From: an uncultured bacterium
GTDB lineage: Bacteria; Patescibacteriota; Gracilibacteria; Absconditabacterales; Absconditicoccaceae
DNA: 64,000 nucleotides
Direction: 5' to 3'
NCBI GenBank assembly: GCA_947168815.1
Contig: CAMVNG010000001.1
Span: forward strand, 248,001 to 312,000
A model generated the notes under the pieces. It saw only the letters and a list, made by a program, of their open reading frames with translations, was not told the DNA's origin and did no database searches. Numbering within the stretch: the first letter of the stretch is position 1; each line of letters starts with the position of its first letter. Positions 7,022 to 46,323 of this stretch are shown piece by piece. The position numbers and the translations under genes are program-made.

Positions 7022-9130
7022 ATGAAAAAATATATTCTCCTATTATTAATATGAATTCTATGAATCAATACTGCACTATGAGCATCGCATTGTTCTGATA
7101 GTAATATATCCTATTTAAAAGAACAGTTAAATCTTTGTAAATCAGAATGATATATTTGTAACCTATCTACTTCTGAAATAGAAAATCTCATAGAACAAGA
7201 AGAATCAAGATATCAAGAATGCTTAAAAGAAGAATCAAGAATAAACAATTTTAATACACTTCTAGAAAAAGCAAACTCTGCCTTTGACAACGGAAATTAT
7301 AAGGAGGCTATTTCATTATATAAAGCAATGAAAAATTATGATGATTGAACAAATACAAAAACACTAAATAATGCAATTTGAAGATGCTATTTCAATATTT
7401 GAAATGAGGCTTTTAATAAAAAAGATTACAATTTAGCAATCAGCAATTACAAGGAATGTTTAAATCTTGTACCTGACGATCCATCAACACTCTATAACAT
7501 TTGAATCTCATATGTATATCTCTGAGATGCACAAGCAATAACATACTTAGACAAGGCAAAATCACTTGCAAGCGATTCAGAATTAATAGAAAATATCAAA
7601 AAAGTTTATCCGCAAGCTCAAAGACTAGCAGAATTAGAAGAAAGTAAGAAACATCAAAGAACTAATGACCCACTAGCTTATAAACAATATTATCTATCAT
7701 GATTAAATATTTTTTCAGCACGGGAAAAACTACCATTACATTCAACACAAGTAATCATAGCTATTATCGATGATTGAGTTGACACAACACATCCAGATTT
7801 ATCTGAGAACATACGAACTAACCAATCAGAAATTTCATGAAATTGATTAGATGACGATAAAAACGGATATATTGATGATATTCATTGACGGAATTTCACA
7901 GATAATTCAGGAATATTAAATGTTAAAGGGAAACATTGAACGATGGTAGCAGGAATCATCGCATGAAAACTAAATAACAATATTTGAATTGCGTGAATTA
8001 CTCCAAATGTAAAAATTATACCACTAGTCGTAGGAGATATATGAGGGAAAGCTGATGGATATTACATCGCAAAGGCGATAGATTATGCAATAGATAACTG
8101 AGCGAATATTATCAATATCAGTCTATGAGGAGATCGATGAGATTATAAAGACATCTATTCAGAATATTTCAAAAAAGCAAATGAAAAAGGAATAATTGTT
8201 GTAGTCGCTGCATGAAATTGAGATAACGATACAAGTGAAAATAGTAATTGAATTAACACTTCTGTAAATAAAATATCTCCTGTATGTGATGAAGTAAACG
8301 AAAAAACTGTTATTTGAGTTTGAGCATTAAAAACCGATGGAACTTTAACAAAACGATCAAATTTCGGAAGTTGTGTCGACGTTTATAGTTTCTGAGAAGA
8401 AGTTTACAGCACAACAGTAAACGCTTTTGAAAAAGAAGAAACTAAAGAAAATGAACCATATAATTACTGAGCATGAACATCTTTTGCAGCTCCTATGATT
8501 GCCTGAATAATTGGACTCTGATACAACATTTATGGAAAAATTGATCCTATCACAGTATTTGATGCTCTCAAGAATGCTAGAGAAGGGAATATTATTAATA
8601 CTGTTAAATATTTAGACAATCTTTCTGCAACCATAGGAGAATTAAACAGAGCAATTACATGGATGCACGAAAAAGGATTAACAATTCATGATACTCCAAG
8701 CACCTTCAAATATGCAAATCCTTTAAGAAGGGATGAAGCTGCTAAATTCTTTGTACAATATGCAAAAGAAGTATTATGAAAGAAGCCAGACTACAACAAA
8801 GAAAATTGTAATTTCAAAGACTTAGATAAAGCATGGAGCGATCTTAGGAACATAGCCATCGAATCATGCCAATTATGACTCTTCCAATGATCAAATTGAT
8901 ATTTCAAACCAGATAGTCAACTTAGTAATGCGCAAGCAATTACAGTATTTATGAGACTATTAAAAGGATATATGGATGAAAGTTGATCTCACTATGCAAA
9001 TAAATATTTTAGTGAAGCTTGGAATTTAGGACTTATTTCCTGAACAGCCTTAGGGAACAGAAATAATTTTGATATCAGTGCAACAAGATGAGACGTTGCA
9101 TTAATGCTATATAGATGAAGAAATAAATAA
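7022..9130 (+). CDS. Secreted subtilisin-like protease with TPR-like and SLH-like domains
   Basis: 702 aa. A signal peptide (MKKYILLLLLIGILG, then A-L-G-A) is followed by a TPR-like helical region (~residues 75-200; ANSAFDNGNYKEAISLYKAM and similar) and an S8 peptidase domain. Catalytic residues: Asp ~250 in IIAIIDDGVD, His ~305 in KHGTMVAGI, Ser ~487 in GAGTSFAAPM; the oxyanion Asn is in AAGNG. The DKNGYIDDIHGRNF calcium-type loop is also present. The C-terminal ~130 residues resemble the SLH protein at 14675-15322 (RRDEAAKFF, WSDLRNIAIESCQLGLF). It is probably exported and held at the cell surface. ATG 7022 was chosen over 7016 because it starts the signal peptide cleanly. Confidence 0.9.
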
Positions 9131-12402: not shown

Positions 12403-13350
12403 TTACTTTCCTCCTCTAAGAAAGCTCTCAGCCTCCAATGCTGCCATACATCATGTTCATGCAGCAGTAATCGCTTGTCTATACTTTTTATCTTGAACAT
12501 CTCATGCCGCAAAAACCCCTTCTACACTTGTTTGCTTTGTTCCTGGAACAGTATTAATATATCAATGTTCATCAACCTCTATTTGTCAGTTAAGGAACTC
12601 AGTATTAGGTCTATGTCATACTGCATAAAAAAGTCCTGCACATTCAATTGTAAATTTTTCATTAGTCTTATTATTAATAGCCGTAACTTTAGTCAATTCT
12701 TTTCAATCCCCTAAAGCTTCAAGTATTTCTGTATTCCATAAAATCTTTATCTTTTCATTTAAAAGTACTTGTTGTTGCATTGTTTGTGAAGCTCTTAATA
12801 CATCTCTTCTTACCAAAAGATTCACTTCACTACCAAATTTAGTCAAATAAATAGCCTCTTCCAAAGCCGCATCTCCTCATCATACAACAAGAAGTCTTTT
12901 GTTTCTATATAATGGAAGTCCTCAATCACAAATAGCACATGCAGAAATACCTCTTTGCCAATATTTTTCTTCTCATGGAATACCTAATCTCTTAGCTGTT
13001 GCTCAAGTTGCAATAATAAGAGCCTTTGAATAATAAACTTCAGTTCAAGAAAAAACCTTAAAAGGTCTCTCTGAAAAATCTACACGATCAATTGTTTTTG
13101 TCAAAATTTCTACTCATTGATTTTGAGCTTGTTTTCTAATTTTTAACATCAACTCCGCTCAATCTACTCCATCTGGGAATCATGGAAAATTATACACTGT
13201 TGTTGTAGTCGTAAGCTGTCCTCAAGCTGGAATTCATCATGCCATAAATCATTCAAACAATAGAGGTTTTAGCAACGCTCTAGAAGCATAAATAGATGCC
13301 GTATATCATGCAGGTCATGAACCGATGATAATAAGATTATGAATTTCCAT
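12403..13350 (-). CDS. trxB: Thioredoxin reductase
   Basis: 315 aa, typical. FAD site IIIGSGPAGYTASIYASRA, redox pair CAIC near residues 138-141 (usually CATC), NADPH loop VVGGGDAALEEA and C-terminal FAD block GVFAAGDVQDKKYRQAITA. Cytoplasmic NADPH-dependent reduction of thioredoxin. It follows 49 nt of spacer upstream of the rRNA methyltransferase on the same strand. The divergent 256-nt region 13351-13606 is AT-rich and presumably contains promoters; no other gene was seen there. Confidence 0.94.
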
Positions 13351-13606
13351 TACTAAAGAGTAGAAGGTAAAGATACTTTATTCTACTAAATTATTTTAAC
13401 AATACAAGAAAGAACTACCTAAAATATAATTTCTACTTGTTATTTTCCAATTTACATACATTATTTGTCTATAATTCAAACATAATAAAAACAGAATTAA
13501 CAATAAAGACACAAAAACAAAAACTCTAGATTTCTCATTTCTTTTTTCTATACTCTATAAATATAGTAAATACCTATAAACAAAACTTTATTATTCTTTC
13601 AATCCC

Positions 13607-14608
13607 ATGAAAAAAGAAGAAATACTAGAAAACACGAATACATTATCCTTCTATTCTCATAATTTCAGATTCTATTTTGCAGGATTTAGTATTGCTGTTG
13701 GTATATTCATCATACTTTTTGTACTATGATTTTTCAGCTTTAACAGAACACCACAACTTCTTAGTAATCCTAAAGTGTTAAACACAATAGAAAAAAATGC
13801 ATTTCAAGATACTTTCAGTTGAACAGAACAAAAAGCTAAAAAATCATCTAAGACAATCTTAAGTTCTTACCCTACCCTTTACCATATTGGAGAGAAACAA
13901 ATTCCAAGTCTCAGCAAGAAATACAATATTCTTAAAAAAATTCCATCAAATAATGCAAAAATATCTCCTCTCATAAAAGATTTAAGGCTACCAGAAATAA
14001 AAACAAATGAATTAAAATGAGGAAGTATCGAATTTATAAGTTTCACAAGCCCTGCAAACAATTATATTATAGATCTCGATAATAAATTAGCTACAATAGA
14101 CCTTCTAAATACTCAAGAGGATTCAACAAATAGCAAAAAAAGTTATACTCAAAAAGAGGTTAAAAAATACATTAAAGGAGAACTAAATTCATTATGATTA
14201 AATTTAAAATACTACTGAGAACCAACCATTTCAGAAGACACTCTTTGATATTTAGATATATTCTATCCTAAAGAAATTAATTGAATACCTATTTGGCTTA
14301 CTGAGAACCAACAAGAAGGGATTCATGCAAGATTCGATTTAAAAACATGAAAAATCTTCAGTTTAATAAATTATAGCATTCAGTCTTATCAAATATCTGA
14401 ACATACATTAAATCAGACAAAAGATACTTTACTAAAAAATCTACAAGCACGTTGAGATATCGATATCTCAAAAAAATGAGGAGAAAGATCTTTAGAAATG
14501 GAAGAATGAGAACTCATTTATCTAGAAAAATGAGATTATCTTATTCCATCACTTCTCTTCAAAGCAAAAAGAGTTAATAGAAACATTATCCTTCCTCTCT
14601 ATATTTAA
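13607..14608 (+). CDS. Single-pass membrane protein with extracytoplasmic domain
   Basis: 333 aa, family not recognised. A short cytoplasmic N-terminus, one TM helix at ~residues 30-50 (AGFSIAVGIFIILFVLGFF), then ~280 mostly hydrophilic residues with beta-rich stretches (GYLDIFYPKEINGIPIWLTE). The anti-sigma or secreted PepSY-like arrangement is possible but not shown. It is the only gene between the divergent trxB and the following terminator. Confidence 0.7.
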
Positions 14609-20018: not shown

Positions 20019-23000
20019 ATGGCATCTAATCTAGAACGTATGAATGACATCCTTGATTTTTGGGCTAAAGATAATACTTTTCAAAGATCAATTGATGAAA
20101 GATCAGAAAAAATGAATTATAGATTTTTTGATTGACCTCCATTTGCTAGTTGAACTCCGCACTACGGACACTTATTAGCGGGAAGTATTAAAGATGTCAT
20201 TCCTAGATATAGAACGATGAAAGGATATAAAGTAAAAAGAAAGTGGTGATGGGATTGTCATGGATTACCAGTAGAAAAAGCAGTAGAAAAAGCTTTAGGA
20301 ATCGATTGAAAAAAAGATATCGAACAAAAAATAGGAATCGAAACATTCGTTGAAAAATGTAGAGCTTATGTAAACCAAACAAATGCGGATTGGAAATGGT
20401 TCGTAGATCACACAGGAAGATGGGCTGACATTACAAATCCATATTTCACAATGGATCTAGATTTTATGGAAACGGTGATTTGGTGTTTTTCTAATATCTA
20501 CAACCAAAATAAAGTATATAAAGGATTTAAAGTACAAGGATATTGTCCAAGTTGTGCTACTCCATTAGCAAACAATGAAATTTCTGATGGATATGAAGAT
20601 AGACAAGACATGGCTATTACTATTAAATTCGCCCATAAAGCTCCAAAATCAGAAAAATATGAATCAACAGAAGATGGTTTTGTTGATGTTGTTGCATGAG
20701 TTATCAAAGATAGCGAATGAAAATATGCCATGGTTCACCATGCAAAAGAAAATCAATGGTTCTTCCCTGGAGGTAAAGTAAATCCATGAGAAAGCCTAGA
20801 AGATGCCACAAAAAGAGAACTTAAAGAAGAAATAGGAGTAGATGTTGCTAGCCAAAAATATTTGTGAGCTGTAAAAATTATAACATTATGAAAACCTTGT
20901 AGAGTTCACTGGTTTGAGGTTGAAACAAACGATACTCCATCTATCCAAGAACCAGAAAAACACAATGCATTAGAATGGGTTAAAGAAGAAACAGCTGAAA
21001 ATAAACTTTGATTCGCCCTAAATATCAATTGAAATATTATTGATGATGAAAATGAATTAGTACATGACTTCATCGATTTCCATCTTTTCAAAAACGTTCT
21101 AGATCCAGAAGATAAAGGATTAATCGATGGTAACTTTAACTTCTTAGCATGGACAACAACTCCATGGACATTACCTAGCAATATGTTCCTAGCAGTTGGT
21201 GCTGATATCGATTATGTTACAGTATATGACCCTGACTCAAAAGAATACTATGTAATGGCAGAAAACTTAGTTAAAAAATACTATAAATCACCAGATCAAT
21301 ATAAATTCATTTACAAACAAAAAGGAAAAGAATTAGAGAACTTAACATATAAGCCATTATTTGATTATATTCTCAATTCTAAAATTGCTGATGAATATAA
21401 AAAAGAATTCTTCCATATTCTTATTGCAGATTTTGTAAGTATTGAAGATGGTACAGGAATTGTACATATTGCTCCAACATTCTGAGAAGACGACTTTAGA
21501 GTTGTTGCAAACAGACTTGGAGAACAAAAAGCATTAGATTGGTTGTTTATGCCAGTTGATGATTATGGATGTTTTGATGAACAAGTTCCAGATTATCAAG
21601 GAATGAAAGTTTTTGATGTAAACAAACCTGTTATGGACCTTCTTAAAGAGAAAAAAATAACAGTTAAAGCTGAATCAATCAAACACTCATATCCTCACTG
21701 TTGGAGATGTCACTCACCTCTTATCTACAAAGCTATGTCTAGCTGGTTCATCAAAGAAAAAGAGATGAATGCAGAAAGTTATAAAGATGCTGAAAGCGTT
21801 TCTTTCGTTCCAGAAACTGTAAAAAATAGATTTATAAATGGATTACAACAAGCTCCTGATTGGAATGTTGCAAGAAATAGATATTGGTGATCCCCTCTTC
21901 CTATTTGGCAAAATGTAGAAGACCCTGAAGATCGTTTTTCATTAGGAAGTCTTGAAGAAATCTATCAATTAACAAGAACAGGTTCATTAAACCTTACTAA
22001 AAACATCTTCCTAAGACATTGAAAAACAGATTTCAATGAAAAGAAACATTTTGATGGATTAGGAATGTCTGTTCTCACAGAAGAAGGAGAAGAGCAAGCA
22101 CAAGAAGTTAATAAAGCTTTAGAAAAGCACCTAAAAGAAAAAGAAGAATTAGTTTTCATCATTTCTCCTCTTCAAAGGTCTTGGCAAACAATTAAACCAA
22201 CACTTATTACACTATTCTGAGAAGAAAGAATTGAAGCTGCAGAAAAAAAATATTATGAAACACGAGAAGAATATAAAAAAGTATTCAATGATTGAAGCCT
22301 CAAAGAAATCCTTCAATGAACAGATGCCCAAAATATCTTCAAAATTGATGAACAAGTTTATATTGATTGGAGGATGACAGAACACTATTCTCCAGAAAAC
22401 CAAGATGAGTTTTCAGCATGTAATAGTCTCAATTGGACAAAATATGATGAACCAATCGGAAGCTCAAACAAATGAGAATCACTAAATACTGCCATAAAAA
22501 GAGTTACTAATGCCATAAAATATTGGAACAAAGAATTTGCAACAAAAACAATTATTTGGGCTACTCATAACGACACAATCGTAATGTCAAAAAAAGCTTT
22601 CCGTAATTTCGATTATGGAACTTATAGAGAAAAATATCTATTAAAACATGCAAACTTCGTAATCAATTATTGGGATAATGATAGAAATACAGAAGTTGAC
22701 CTACACAAACCATACGTTGATAACTACCGAGGAGTAAGAAATTGAAAAACATATAAGAGGATAGCAGAAGTAATGGACTGTTGGTTTGAATCAGGTTCAA
22801 TGCCATTTGGACAAGACCATTACCTAGGAGATGAAAATAATTGTGACCTTACCTACCCTGCAGATTTTATTGCAGAAGGACTAGATCAAACAAGATGATG
22901 GTTTAGATCTCTTCATGTTGTAGGACACGCAATTAAAGGAACAAACGCATTTAAAAACGTTATCGTTAACTGATTAATCCTAGCAGAAGACGGTAAAAAA

Positions 23001-24188
23001 ATGTCTAAGAGCTTACATAATTACCCAGATCCTAAAGGACTTATTGAAAAATGGTGAGGTGATGCCTTCAGACTTTACACATTATCTTCTCCAGTAGTAA
23101 GAGCAGAACCTATGAAATTCTCTGAAAAAGGAGTAGAGCAAATGTTTAAAGATTTCAACATTCCTCTAGAAAATGTATATAAGTTCTTTGAAACCTATGC
23201 TAAAATCGATTGATGGAAAACAGATTGAACTGAAGTTCATCTCATAAGACATGCAGATGCTACTTCACAAGACCATGATGCAGAATTAACAGAAGATGGT
23301 ATAAAAATGCTTAATTCTGAAGAAACTCGTGAAAAAATAGTAAGATTAAATCCTGATATTATTATTCATACTCCATTACTAAGAAGTAAACAAACTGCTG
23401 AAATTCTTAGAAATATTCTTAAAGAAACAACATGAAAAGCTGTTGATCTTCAACAAATTAGACCAGACAACAGCCAAGATGCTTCTAAGAGTTATATGAA
23501 AAAATTATATGATGAAGTATTAAGAGAACATCAAGGACAAAAAATATTAATCGTAGGACATGCATATACCTTAAGAACACTTTGGGAAATTCTCTATGAC
23601 AATAATCAAGAAGACTATACTTATAATGAAGTTGAAAGAGAAGTTGGATTAAAACCATTAGAAATTATCAAACTTCCAACTTACCAAATAGCAAATGAAC
23701 TAGATAAATGGATATTAGCGGAATTAAATCAAACCCTTAAAAATGTAGACGAAGCACTTTCTCGTTGTGAAATCGATGCTGCAATTAAAAGCTGAATTGA
23801 TTTTGTAGAAAAACTTACTAATTGGTATCTTAGAAGAAGTAGAAGAAGATTCCGAGGAAGCGAAATGACTACAGATAAATTCTCTGCATACTCAACACTC
23901 TTTGAAGTGCTTAGAACATATCTTAAAATTATGGCTCCATTTACACCATTCATCACAGAAGAAATCTGGCAAAAACTAAATGGATTCATCGAATGAAAAG
24001 ATGCAAATATTAAATCAGATTCTCTCCATCTAAAAATGTGGCCTTTTGCAAATGAAAAATATATTGATGCTCAACTTATGGAAGAAATTACAACTGTAAG
24101 AAAAGCAATCAAGCTTGCACTCTTTATTAGATCAAAGAATAAGATTGCTGTAAAGCAACCACTTCAATCATTACAACTTAAAATATAA
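20019..24188 (+). CDS. ileS: Isoleucyl-tRNA synthetase with inserted Nudix and two histidine-phosphatase domains
   Basis: 1389 aa in one frame. The IleRS core is intact: HYGH (HIGH) in [28 protein letters not shown] of the CP1 editing domain (W ~378), [42 protein letters not shown] and the anticodon-binding bundle ([13 protein letters not shown]). Three insertions: (1) ~207-370, a Nudix domain with a perfect box [17 protein letters not shown] followed by KEEIGV; (2) ~655-890, a histidine phosphatase with LRHGKTDFN (His ~667), SPLQRSWQT and ATHND; (3) ~1070-1222, a second one with LIRHADAT (His ~1078), [11 protein letters not shown] and VGHAYTL. Without them it is ~835 aa, and it ends right after the anticodon domain, lacking the usual long C-terminal extension. 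It overlaps sufC by one base (TAATG). Confidence 0.93.
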
Positions 24189-24901
24189 TGCTAAAAATCG
24201 ATAATCTTTCAGTTCATATATGAGAAAAGGAAATTCTTAATGGAATTTCCTTTGATTTTGAGAAAGGAAAGAATTATTGTATTCTTTGAAAAAACGGTTC
24301 AGGAAAATCTTCTCTAGCAATGACTATTGCTTGAAATCCTAAATACGAAATTAGTAGTTGAGATATCCTTCTTAACTGAGAATCATTAAAAAATCTTAGT
24401 GTTGACGAAAGGAGCAAAAAAGGAATTTTTCTCTCATTTCAAAATATTCCAGAAATCCCTTGAGTAAAACTCTTTGAATTCTTAAAAGCGATTTATGATA
24501 TCAGGCAAGAGAAACCAATTTCTTTTATGTGATTTAAAAAAATCATTGAACCACTTGTTGAAGAATTAGAAATCGATAAATCATTTCTTCGAAGAGACTT
24601 AAATGTGGGATTCAGTTGAGGAGAAAAAAGAAAAATAGAAGTACTTCAAATAAGACTACTAAATCCCTCTATCATCATCCTAGATGAAATAGATAGTGGA
24701 TTAGACGTAAATGCCGTAAAACAAGTTTCAACATTACTAAAAAAAATAAATAGTACTGAAAATACCTTCATCATTATTACTCATCTATTTGAGATGCTAG
24801 AAGGACTTCCAATTGAACAAGTTCTTATAATTGAAAATTGAAAATTAAAAGAAACATGAGATGAAAATCTCATGAACAAAATAAAAAAAGAGGGGTTCTA
24901 G
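24188..24901 (+). CDS. sufC: Fe-S assembly ATPase SufC
   Basis: 237 aa. ABC ATPase with Walker A LGKNGSGKSSLA, the Suf-specific stretch IPGVKLFEFLKAIYD, ABC signature GFSGGEKRKIEVLQ and Walker B IIILDEIDSGLDVNAV. It powers the SufBCD scaffold for cluster assembly. Translationally coupled to ileS by a 1-nt overlap. sufB lies 6 kb away on the other strand, and no sufD or sufS is seen in the window. Confidence 0.93.
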
Positions 24902-26007
24902 ACTACTCTATTATACCTTCATCAGTATCAAATACTTCCGATTTCTGACCTTAAACGGAAGTATTTTTGATATTTTTCTGGATCTGAATATTCAAAACGC
25001 TCAATATATCAATCAATAGCCTCCCATGATCCCCAACTTCACTCTTGCACGTCAATAGTATTGGTAATAGGAATTACACATCATGAATTTAACTTAATAT
25101 AAGTAACAGAAAAAGCATCATGAGCTCAATATGCACCCTTCAAATCATCATGCATACAATTAACATATGGTACTCTAGTATGTTTTTCAAGTTCTGCATC
25201 CGTCAATGATTTTAATCCCTTCTCCACTCAAACAACAACTCAATAAGGTCTTCAAAATAAAGAACCAATAATTTCCCAAAGTTCATTCATTGCATGTAAA
25301 ATTTTCTCATTTTCTCATTGATCTAAAACCTCTTTTAAAAGATATTTAGAATTATCCTGAACATGTTTATAATCCATTAAAGCTCAATCAACAGATATTT
25401 TAAGAGGTCATCTAGAAGAAAGATAATTATTATAATTCGCATAAGTATTATCAGTACATAACTTAGTAAGATACTGATTGAAATACTCTTCTGATATTGG
25501 AAGGTTTATTTTTTTAGCTAAAGTCAAAGAAGAATCATTCATCTCTACCTTCTCTCCTTCCAAATACATAACCTTTAATGTTTGTAAACTTCATCAATCT
25601 CTAGGATTCTTATAAGGAATAGGATAAATATTTAACTGTCCCTCCCTAGAAAAATCAATAATTCTTCAAGGCTTTGTTGATTCATCCTTAATAAAAAAAT
25701 GAGCAGCATGCATTCAACTATTTTTCCATACCAATAATTCACATCAAAGAGAAACTTTTTTCATATCAAATCCGAGTTCCTTGAGTTTCATCAATGCCAA
25801 TAAAGTAACATCAACACAGCTTCACATAAAACAGGTCTCTCATGATTCTTGTATCTCAGAAATTGTTCTCCTTCCTAATTTTGATCTAATATCTTCATTA
25901 GACCATTTATCTTTTTTCAACCAAGAATAAATCTCTTTCAAAATGAGTGCCAAATCATGGCTTCACAGCACTTCATTCTCTTTTGGTTGAAATGATAAAT
26001 TCTCCAT
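24898..26007 (-). CDS. Putative transglutaminase/papain-like fold protein
   Basis: 369 aa, cytoplasmic. Residues ~60-130 hold a possible Cys-His-Asp set: ETCFMGSCVDVTLLALMKLK (Cys), GMHAAHFFIKDE (His), RIIDFSREG (Asp), in the order and spacing seen in transglutaminase-like proteins. The C-terminal half has no recognised fold. The family match is by motif order only. The stop codon overlaps sufC's TAG on the opposite strand (CTAG palindrome), and its last ~25 codons contain sufC's terminator. Confidence 0.6.
24932..24967 (+). terminator. sufC terminator lying inside the convergent gene
   Basis: ATACTTCCG (24932-24940) pairs with CGGAAGTAT (24955-24963), followed by a T-run. It lies within the last codons of the minus-strand gene 24898-26007. 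Confidence 0.75.
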
Positions 26008-26075: not shown

Positions 26076-26307
26076 AGAAAAAAGGAGCACCCTACAACGA
26101 GAATGCTCCACAATACAAAGGAGAAATAAAGATACACAAGGAATATTACCTCTTACTTTTCGCTCGCCACTACTAAGTAGCATCTAAATTTCATTTGAAC
26201 ACTTTATAGAATCTATGGATCAACGTGTATTTGCCACTCCCCAAAGCTTATCGCAGCTTATCACGCCATGTATTCAAATAGTTTGAAACAAACTCCCTAT
26301 GTAAAAC
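26076..26307 (-). ncRNA. Small RNA resembling 23S rRNA 5' domain, with own promoter and terminator
   Basis: Read on the minus strand it contains GGCGTGATAAGCTGCGATAA, then GCTTTGGGGAG, then TTGATCCATAGATTC, and further on CTTAGTAGTGGCGAGCGAAA. These follow, in order, conserved blocks of bacterial 23S rRNA domain I (about E. coli 50-280). The part between the third block and the last is much shorter than in 23S and nothing 23S-like follows. The transcript ends at a hairpin GGAGCA/TGCTCC (26084-26089, 26104-26109) with a T-run. It may be a decayed rRNA fragment or a functional rRNA mimic. No ORF fits the region. Confidence 0.7.
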
Positions 26308-26313
26308 AACAAT

Positions 26314-26342
26314 ACTATACAGAAAGACTCGAATAAATACAA
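26314..26342 (-). promoter_or_regulatory. promoter of the 23S-like small RNA
   Basis: Minus strand: TTGTAT (26342-26337), exactly 17 nt, TATAGT (26319-26314). Transcription would start near 26307. The remaining 100 nt to aqp (26345-26448) is AT-rich and holds no ORF. Confidence 0.75.
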
Positions 26343-26448: not shown

Positions 26449-27111
26449 ATGAAAAAATATATCGCTGAATGTTTAGGAACAATGATTCTAGTAATTTTCT
26501 GATGTTGAGTTGCTGTTCGAACAGGAGTAGATATTGTTGCAACAGCTCTAGCATTCTGACTAGTAATCGTAGCTCTAGCTTATGCAATCGGACCTATCTC
26601 TGGATGCCATGTAAATCCAGCTGTAAGTCTATGAGTTTGGCTTAGCTGAGGAATGAAAACAAAAGATTTTTGATATTATGTTCTCGCTCAATTCATCTGA
26701 GGTATTCTTTGAGCAGCTATCCTAGGTTTCTTATTATGATGATATTCAATCTTAGGTTCAAATAGTCTAGATTGAGTATTTGGAAACGTATGGGTTGGAC
26801 TTCTAGCAGAAATAATCCTAACATTTGTATTTGTATATGCAGTATTAGGAGTAACTTCAAAAGAAGAATTTAGTCCAGTTGCATGATTAGTAATATGAGG
26901 AGCTTTAATTCTCGTACATCTACTCTGACTTTGATTAACTTGAACATCAGTAAATCCTGCAAGAAGTTTTTGACCAGCATTATTTGAATGACGAGAAAGT
27001 CTAAAAATAGTATGGATTTTCATCATTGCTCCATTAATCTGATGATGATTAGCTGCATTAGCTTTCAATTTCTTAAACAAAGAATCAAAAAAGAGAAGAT
27101 TCTGACACTAA
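26449..27111 (+). CDS. Aquaporin (MIP family channel)
   Basis: 220 aa, six TM helices. Both half-helix loops are present: SGCHVNPAVSLG (NPA ~55) and GTSVNPARSFGPA (NPA ~169, with the selectivity-filter Arg). The loop-B Cys-His replaces the usual Gly-His. Water is the likely substrate (AqpZ-like), with glycerol less likely. Nearly every membrane glycine is TGA, so the gene vanishes under the standard code. Confidence 0.92.
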
Positions 27112-46159: not shown

Positions 46160-46312
46160 ATAAAAATCTTTCCCGATGCTTAAGGGAAAGAACTCAATGA
46201 CTGAACTCCATAGAATATCTTTCCCAAAGATTGGGTAGGAATTAGCACCTTATCCTGCGACAGGTTGCTGGGATGTACAAACGAGCCTAGTCTCTTCATC
46301 CACTCTTGATAT
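46160..46312 (-). promoter_or_regulatory. SAM-I (S-box) riboswitch with terminator
   Basis: Minus strand ATATCAAGAGTGGATGAAG, AGACTAGGCTCG, CCCAGCAACC and AAGGTGCTAATTCC follow the S-box consensus in order. P1 is ATATC/GATAT (46308-46312, 46215-46219). The expression platform is a hairpin CTTTCCC/GGGAAAG (46168-46174, 46184-46190) with a long T tail; a second GGGAAAG just inside the 3' side of the aptamer can pair with CTTTCCC as antiterminator. Confidence 0.92.
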
Positions 46313-46323
46313 GTTACATCAAA

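Follow-up and report, generated by a model that had tools for sequence, protein, structure and literature searches.

The question raised by this locus is why a short intergenic stretch should resemble the beginning of 23S rRNA, and whether it is an RNA gene in its own right, a decayed rRNA, a piece of a divided rRNA or the leader of a neighbouring gene. The window (the whole 64,000-nucleotide stretch of DNA analysed) comes from a tiny bacterial genome in which TGA is read as glycine (NCBI code 25), as in Gracilibacteria/Absconditabacteria. The element occupies the minus strand of a 440-bp gap flanked by a divergent aquaporin family gene (26449..27111, plus strand, code 25; Pfam PF00230, E 1e-47) and, downstream, a gene for a protein of 369 aa (24898..26007, minus strand, code 25) without Pfam match; both sides are occupied by ordinary recoded host genes. 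Elsewhere in the window, an isoleucyl-tRNA synthetase-like protein of 1389 aa (20019-24188, plus strand) appeared by eye to contain inserted NUDIX and histidine-phosphatase domains, and a SAM riboswitch was located at 46212-46315 of the minus strand (53.5 bits).

A small RNA of ~230 nt (26078..26307, minus strand) was predicted from a promoter-like site and a terminator. The promoter-like site, read from the sequence, consists of TTGTAT (26342-26337), 17 nt and TATAGT (26319-26314; whole site 26314..26342, minus strand). The sequence-only reading had called it a consensus promoter, which was too strong: it is a weak site that agrees with the consensus at 8 of 12 positions, and it fell under the threshold of the promoter scan, which did not list it. 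The intrinsic terminator proposed in the same reading was recovered by the terminator scan (1 found vs. 0.1 expected) and is a strong one, with a 10-bp stem (26109-26084) followed by TTTTTT (26078..26109, minus strand). Past this terminator, a promoter-like TTGATT-17-TATAAG of the 369-aa gene itself was read by eye. On these signals we infer a small self-contained RNA gene, which would be transcribed.

The sequence blocks from which the likeness to 23S had been deduced (GTGATAAGCTGCGATAAGC, TTGATCC and TAGTGGCGAGCGAAA) were all found on the minus strand, and the covariance check against the LSU model proposed at that time was positive: cmscan matched LSU_rRNA_archaea over 26269-26170 with 40.1 bits (E 3e-10). 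As the Rfam gathering score is 50 bits, the match falls below the cut-off and a default Rfam scan misses the element; the gathering-level scan of the window accordingly gave no LSU rRNA match. The host's own 23S was absent from the assembly, so that the comparison was made with the 23S of the congener G001 (L017) and of 20 other family genomes with 23S matches, and the parts of 23S were assigned with the help of the archaeal LSU model and of the structure that Rfam gives for the 23S of the congener. Only the H5-H6-H7 three-way junction with the kink-turn Kt-7 and helix 13 (H13) were present, corresponding to positions that we take to be ~56-118 and ~235-262, respectively, in E. coli numbering. 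H1-H4 and H8-H12 were missing with respect to the Rfam LSU structure, and no further part of 23S followed H13. The rest of 23S is therefore lacking, as had been stated, but the likeness does not run block by block through the first ~250 nt of 23S, and the element is far from the near-complete domains I-VI of a functional 23S.

Two homologues of the window RNA were identified, one elsewhere in the same genome (L002, G000:C15:3695-3803; BLAST 74% identity, E 8e-18) and one in another genus (L025, G046:C53:50587-50692). The 23S-like three-way junction (26206..26269, minus strand), recognised by the LSU match and by covariation among the three homologues, comprises H5 (26269-26266/26209-26206), H6 (26265-26252) and H7 (26246-26213); these stems hold 16 pairs and covary among the homologues. 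H7 (26213..26246, minus strand) includes a Kt-7-like kink-turn with a C-helix GTG/CAC, a 3-nt bulge GTT, then G.A and A.G pairs (GA/GA), and a terminal loop GCAAATA, in line with the k-turn rules of PMC4316175. The kink-turn is the same in L002, with bulge ATT, and in L025 it has A.U at 2b.2n, a tolerated variant. Shortly before the terminator lies the helix-13-like hairpin (26154..26179, minus strand), with AGTAGTGGCGAGCGAA (26174-26159) held between the two strands of a stem; it has the 23S form stem-AGUAGYGRCGAGCGAA-stem and the same structure in the Rfam LSU model. The minimum-energy fold of the window RNA adds an outer helix of 9 pairs, TTTGAATAC (26278-26270) with GTGTTCAAA (26202-26194), which encloses the junction (26194..26278, minus strand) and is specific to this copy. 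Single-sequence folding (z = -1.83) did not favour the junction, part of which was paired otherwise in the minimum-energy fold.

When the three homologues were aligned, the proposed structure was paired in 97.1% of cells and 10 of the 23 pairs were changed on both sides. None of 500 shuffles reached the pairing or the double-change figure, and sliding the partners lowered pairing to 25-55%. Double changes affected 7 of 9 pairs in the H7 stems and C-helix (stem CTTTGG/CCATAG, TTGTGG/CCACAA and CCATGA/TCATGG; C-helix GTG/CAC, GTA/TAC and ACG/CGT), and 3 of 5 pairs covaried in the H13 closing stem. The loops (H6 GATAAGCT, H7 GCAAATA, and AGTAGTGRCGAGCGAA) were constant in all three homologues while the stems varied. 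This indicated that the fold is maintained and is not debris. Although the composite structure rests on three homologues, which are few, ten double changes would be hard to obtain by decay.

The three RNAs were also clearly different from real 23S. A covariance model (R1) gave them 118-126 bits, in contrast with 33-44 bits for real 23S of the family; the best match in the phylum reached 60 bits, and the best other 23S seen, labelled Verrucomicrobiales, 72 bits. Phylum matches of R1 with E < 1e-7 were ordinary 23S as far as they were checked, and most of the fetched loci had GAAACATCTnAGTA between H6 and H13. The distance from the H6 motif to H13 was 64-81 nt in the three RNAs vs. at least 154 nt in 23S, and the short-spacing composite pattern was found just in these three RNAs, that is, in 2 of 353 class genomes, with no match in IMG/VR. 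A contig scan with TTAGTAGTGRCGAGCGAAA returned ordinary 23S genes, this motif being normal in 23S; plasmid matches covered the H6-H7 stretch only and probably represent rRNA operons, and L041 was set aside as a probable 23S/RNA-phage assembly chimera. No annotated phage was matched in BLAST searches with the window RNA, with L002 or with four stretches of phage RNA, and the literature search found no description of such an RNA.

Helix-13 hairpins outside 23S were six, located in 4 of 49 family genomes, whereas the reversed pattern was never found. They include three more RNA-like units of the family with H13 and without H5-H7 (L003, G000:C1:6737; L313, G027:C1:898044; L314, G024:C24:6973), and in L314 the 23S H12 motif GAACTGAAACATCTAAGTA is placed after H13, unlike the order in 23S. 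The H13 loop was GACGA in all 26 matching 23S of the family whereas five of the six hairpins outside 23S carried GGCGA, which is the general 23S consensus; the window RNA thus did not arise recently by copying from the 23S of its host.

These data bear directly on whether the element is a decayed, functionless piece of 23S. Its clear likeness to 23S, low copy number and patchy spread, as well as its absence from the corresponding place in both congeners, would fit decay. That reading has to face the ten compensatory pairs, an internal deletion of H8-H12 that is identical in all three homologues, a loop that follows the general consensus and not that of the lineage, the presence of terminators, and the order of H12 and H13 in L314, which truncation could not produce; we therefore consider it strongly disfavoured. 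The earlier argument against random debris is upheld by a compact, self-terminated 23S mimic with covarying homologues, and we hold with high confidence that the locus is a maintained 23S-mimicking RNA gene. Such an RNA gene probably has a function.

A second possibility is that the RNA is one piece of a split 23S working inside the ribosome, as the absence of the host's own 23S from the assembly and the separate encoding of domain I pieces might suggest. This is very hard to sustain: complete 23S genes are present in G001 and in at least 15 further members of the family, G046 has an ordinary 23S 5' region alongside the RNA, the two copies in the host genome differ from each other, and the helices needed to connect the RNA with the remainder of 23S are missing from it.

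The maintained RNA gene could also be a cis-acting leader, an attenuator of the downstream gene in the manner of ribosomal protein leaders. The RNA does lie upstream of the 369-aa gene on the same strand with a terminator at its end. The downstream genes of the three copies, however, differ (the 369-aa gene, a GNAT gene and a small protein without match), and none was recognised as a ribosomal protein gene. The promoter scan placed a separate promoter for the next gene just past the RNA terminator in L002 and L025, and L002 presented a better promoter of its own (TTGACT-18-TATATT) than the window copy. Given the three different contexts and these separate promoters, each copy looks like a unit of its own, and we rate a leader as improbable. 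A viral contig contributes one observation of another kind: in L224 (87-179, minus strand) an H5-H6-H7 junction (R1, 53.9 bits), closed by a stem of its own, immediately precedes a reading frame; it is a possible leader and speaks in favour of the leader reading.

Absence from close relatives, together with the lack of a transcript, had been proposed as a sign of decay. The absence itself was confirmed: upstream of their relative of the 369-aa gene (39-40% identical), both congeners have a tRNA-Ser-like gene (tRNA by eye) and, at the corresponding place, no such RNA. This absence is outweighed by the covarying homologues, one elsewhere in the same genome and one from another genus, which point to mobility and not to decay. 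Small genes beside L002 and L025 have no TGA glycine codon whereas host genes use GGN and TGA at about 1:1; GGN vs. TGA codons were 46 to 0 in seven L160 genes and 21 to 0 in four L162 genes. By their codons, these TGA-free neighbours are probably imported. One small protein family (A3), without relatives in IMG/VR, was shared by these two islands of TGA-free genes; it occurred in only 4 of 49 family genomes, among them the two that carry the composite RNA. All these factors taken together suggest that the RNA moves horizontally, as a member of a patchy set of mobile RNA genes. Small TGA-free genes with higher G+C and similar upstream sequences were also seen among TGA=Gly genes in L160, L162, L439, L440 and L441, singly or clustered, and in L439 inside an apparent prophage (by eye); from their sequences they look like a pool of imported cassettes.

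Hairpins of the H13 type were not restricted to the family. In IMG/VR, 35 distinct non-rRNA sites matched AGTAGYGRCGAGCGAA; for a collection of this size, a rough estimate puts the number of matches expected by chance at least as high, so that only stems and noncoding places count as evidence. Closing stems of at least 4 pairs were present in 15 of the 22 sites outside long reading frames and in 0 of the 13 within them, with a background rate of 11% (Fisher p 6e-5, indicative only, as the sites had already been seen when the stem rule and the division by reading-frame length were decided on). Many of the phage sites lie in contigs >140 kb, some close to tRNA genes, and about 15 phage contigs are concerned. 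Noncoding H13-like hairpins with closing stems of their own occur in L042, L164, L165, L172, L173, L174, L180, L181, L184, L191, L194, L198, L201 and L205, the stems being weaker in L042 and L198. By eye, L042/L198 and L164/L184 look like pairs of long related RNAs that carry H13 near tRNA genes; they seem to represent two classes of long structured RNA that lack both a description and an Rfam match. TRNA-like stretches with a Leu-type D arm and the T arm GGTTCGAATCC were recognised by eye in L173 (about 8065-8240), L166 and L179, with the helix-13 hairpin within the D-loop or anticodon region. Outside rRNA, the H12 motif stands alone as a hairpin closed by a stem of its own in L317, L324, L337, L390 and L401 from IMG/VR, and the phage contig L181 has a type-P5 twister ribozyme, a helix-13 hairpin and a tmRNA within 1.3 kb (12687-12763 and 13276-13663).

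These observations bring in the main rival to ribosomal protein capture, namely that the H5-H7 junction and H13 are tertiary-structure blocks (a kink-turn, an AGUA/GAA sarcin-ricin-like loop, a capped hairpin) put to use again in RNAs that serve other purposes, for example large phage RNAs near tRNA arrays, so that the likeness to 23S would reflect a common fold. Stemmed H13 in noncoding phage DNA without H5-H7, the long RNAs of L042/L198 and L164/L184, and the family units L003, L313 and L314 with H13 only all agree with it. The composites, however, keep H5-H6-H7 whole, down to the bases of the L24-bound kink-turn, and join it to a second domain I element, and lone short hairpins between phage genes (L205) fit binding sites more easily. 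We regard this common-fold explanation as a serious possibility, though one that probably does not hold.

Capture of a ribosomal protein is suggested by what the RNA has kept. In 23S, Kt-7 lies in a three-way junction and docks its terminal loop into the arm beside it; it is bound by L24, which joins early in 50S assembly (PMC4316175), and the earliest 50S intermediate consists of domain I with uL22, uL24 and uL29 (PMC9935924). The parts retained in the RNA are those treated as one module in the literature (PMC4316175). L24, one of the partners suggested in the sequence-only reading, would thus be a sensible candidate, as the literature places it on Kt-7 of this very junction (PMC4316175). According to the mechanism proposed here, the RNA would be transcribed and fold as the H5-H6-H7 junction with Kt-7, which is predicted to bind the assembly-starting uL24, perhaps also uL29 or another domain I partner; by holding uL24 in trans, the RNA would act as a sponge in competition with nascent 23S. 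There is good support for the fold; which protein it binds and to what effect, we infer. As a whole, the statement that this is a mobile, maintained RNA mimicking the uL24-binding nucleus of the 50S subunit and acting as a sponge is put forward tentatively, at somewhat under an even chance, and binding of a domain I ribosomal protein as the working principle may be correct but is likewise held with less than even confidence. Kt-7 and uL24 cannot explain the whole set, since three other RNAs of the family carry H13 without H5-H7, and no source naming what H13 binds was found in the literature. A broader proposal, which we consider rather unlikely, is that 23S domain I pieces (H5-H7 junction, H12 and H13) are a mobile RNA toolkit of large phages and imported cassettes that would let selfish DNA seize the proteins initiating 50S assembly, the window RNA being one copy in a bacterial genome.

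Compared with known systems, the RNA shares the order, stems and loops of the H5-H6-H7 junction with Kt-7 and of H13 in 23S domain I (Rfam RF02541/RF02540; covariance match E 3e-10), but it consists of two pieces totalling ~230 nt, without H1-H4, H8-H12 and everything after H13, and has its own terminator outside an rRNA operon. Autoregulatory leaders of ribosomal proteins (S15 three-way-junction operators, L20, L10) are likewise extra-ribosomal RNAs that copy the rRNA site of the protein, a three-way junction in S15 operators (PMC10931766). Unlike them, the window RNA looks like a separate unit with an unrelated gene downstream, and does not lie in the 5' UTR of a ribosomal protein operon. 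Mimics of rRNA are known mainly as such leaders, so that a separate mimic of the uL24 nucleus, if true, would represent a new means of controlling ribosome assembly or of hijacking it. The protein-titrating small RNAs CsrB/RsmZ and 6S RNA copy the normal nucleic-acid target of a protein and soak the protein up; the window RNA would work alike but differs in fold, target and origin. Some H13-bearing phage RNAs are, as the ornate phage RNAs GOLLD and ROOL, long, structured and near tRNA genes; neither GOLLD nor ROOL was matched when the window and 14 further loci were scanned at the gathering level, and the window RNA is much shorter. The recurrence of H13 in phage RNAs raises the testable question of whether phages mimic rRNA to reach the ribosome factory of the host, and the window RNA offers a natural minimal module to study how domain I folding starts. 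We consider that rRNA mimicry, a known principle, is met here in a variant form: a real, maintained and probably mobile RNA gene whose product imitates two pieces of 23S domain I.
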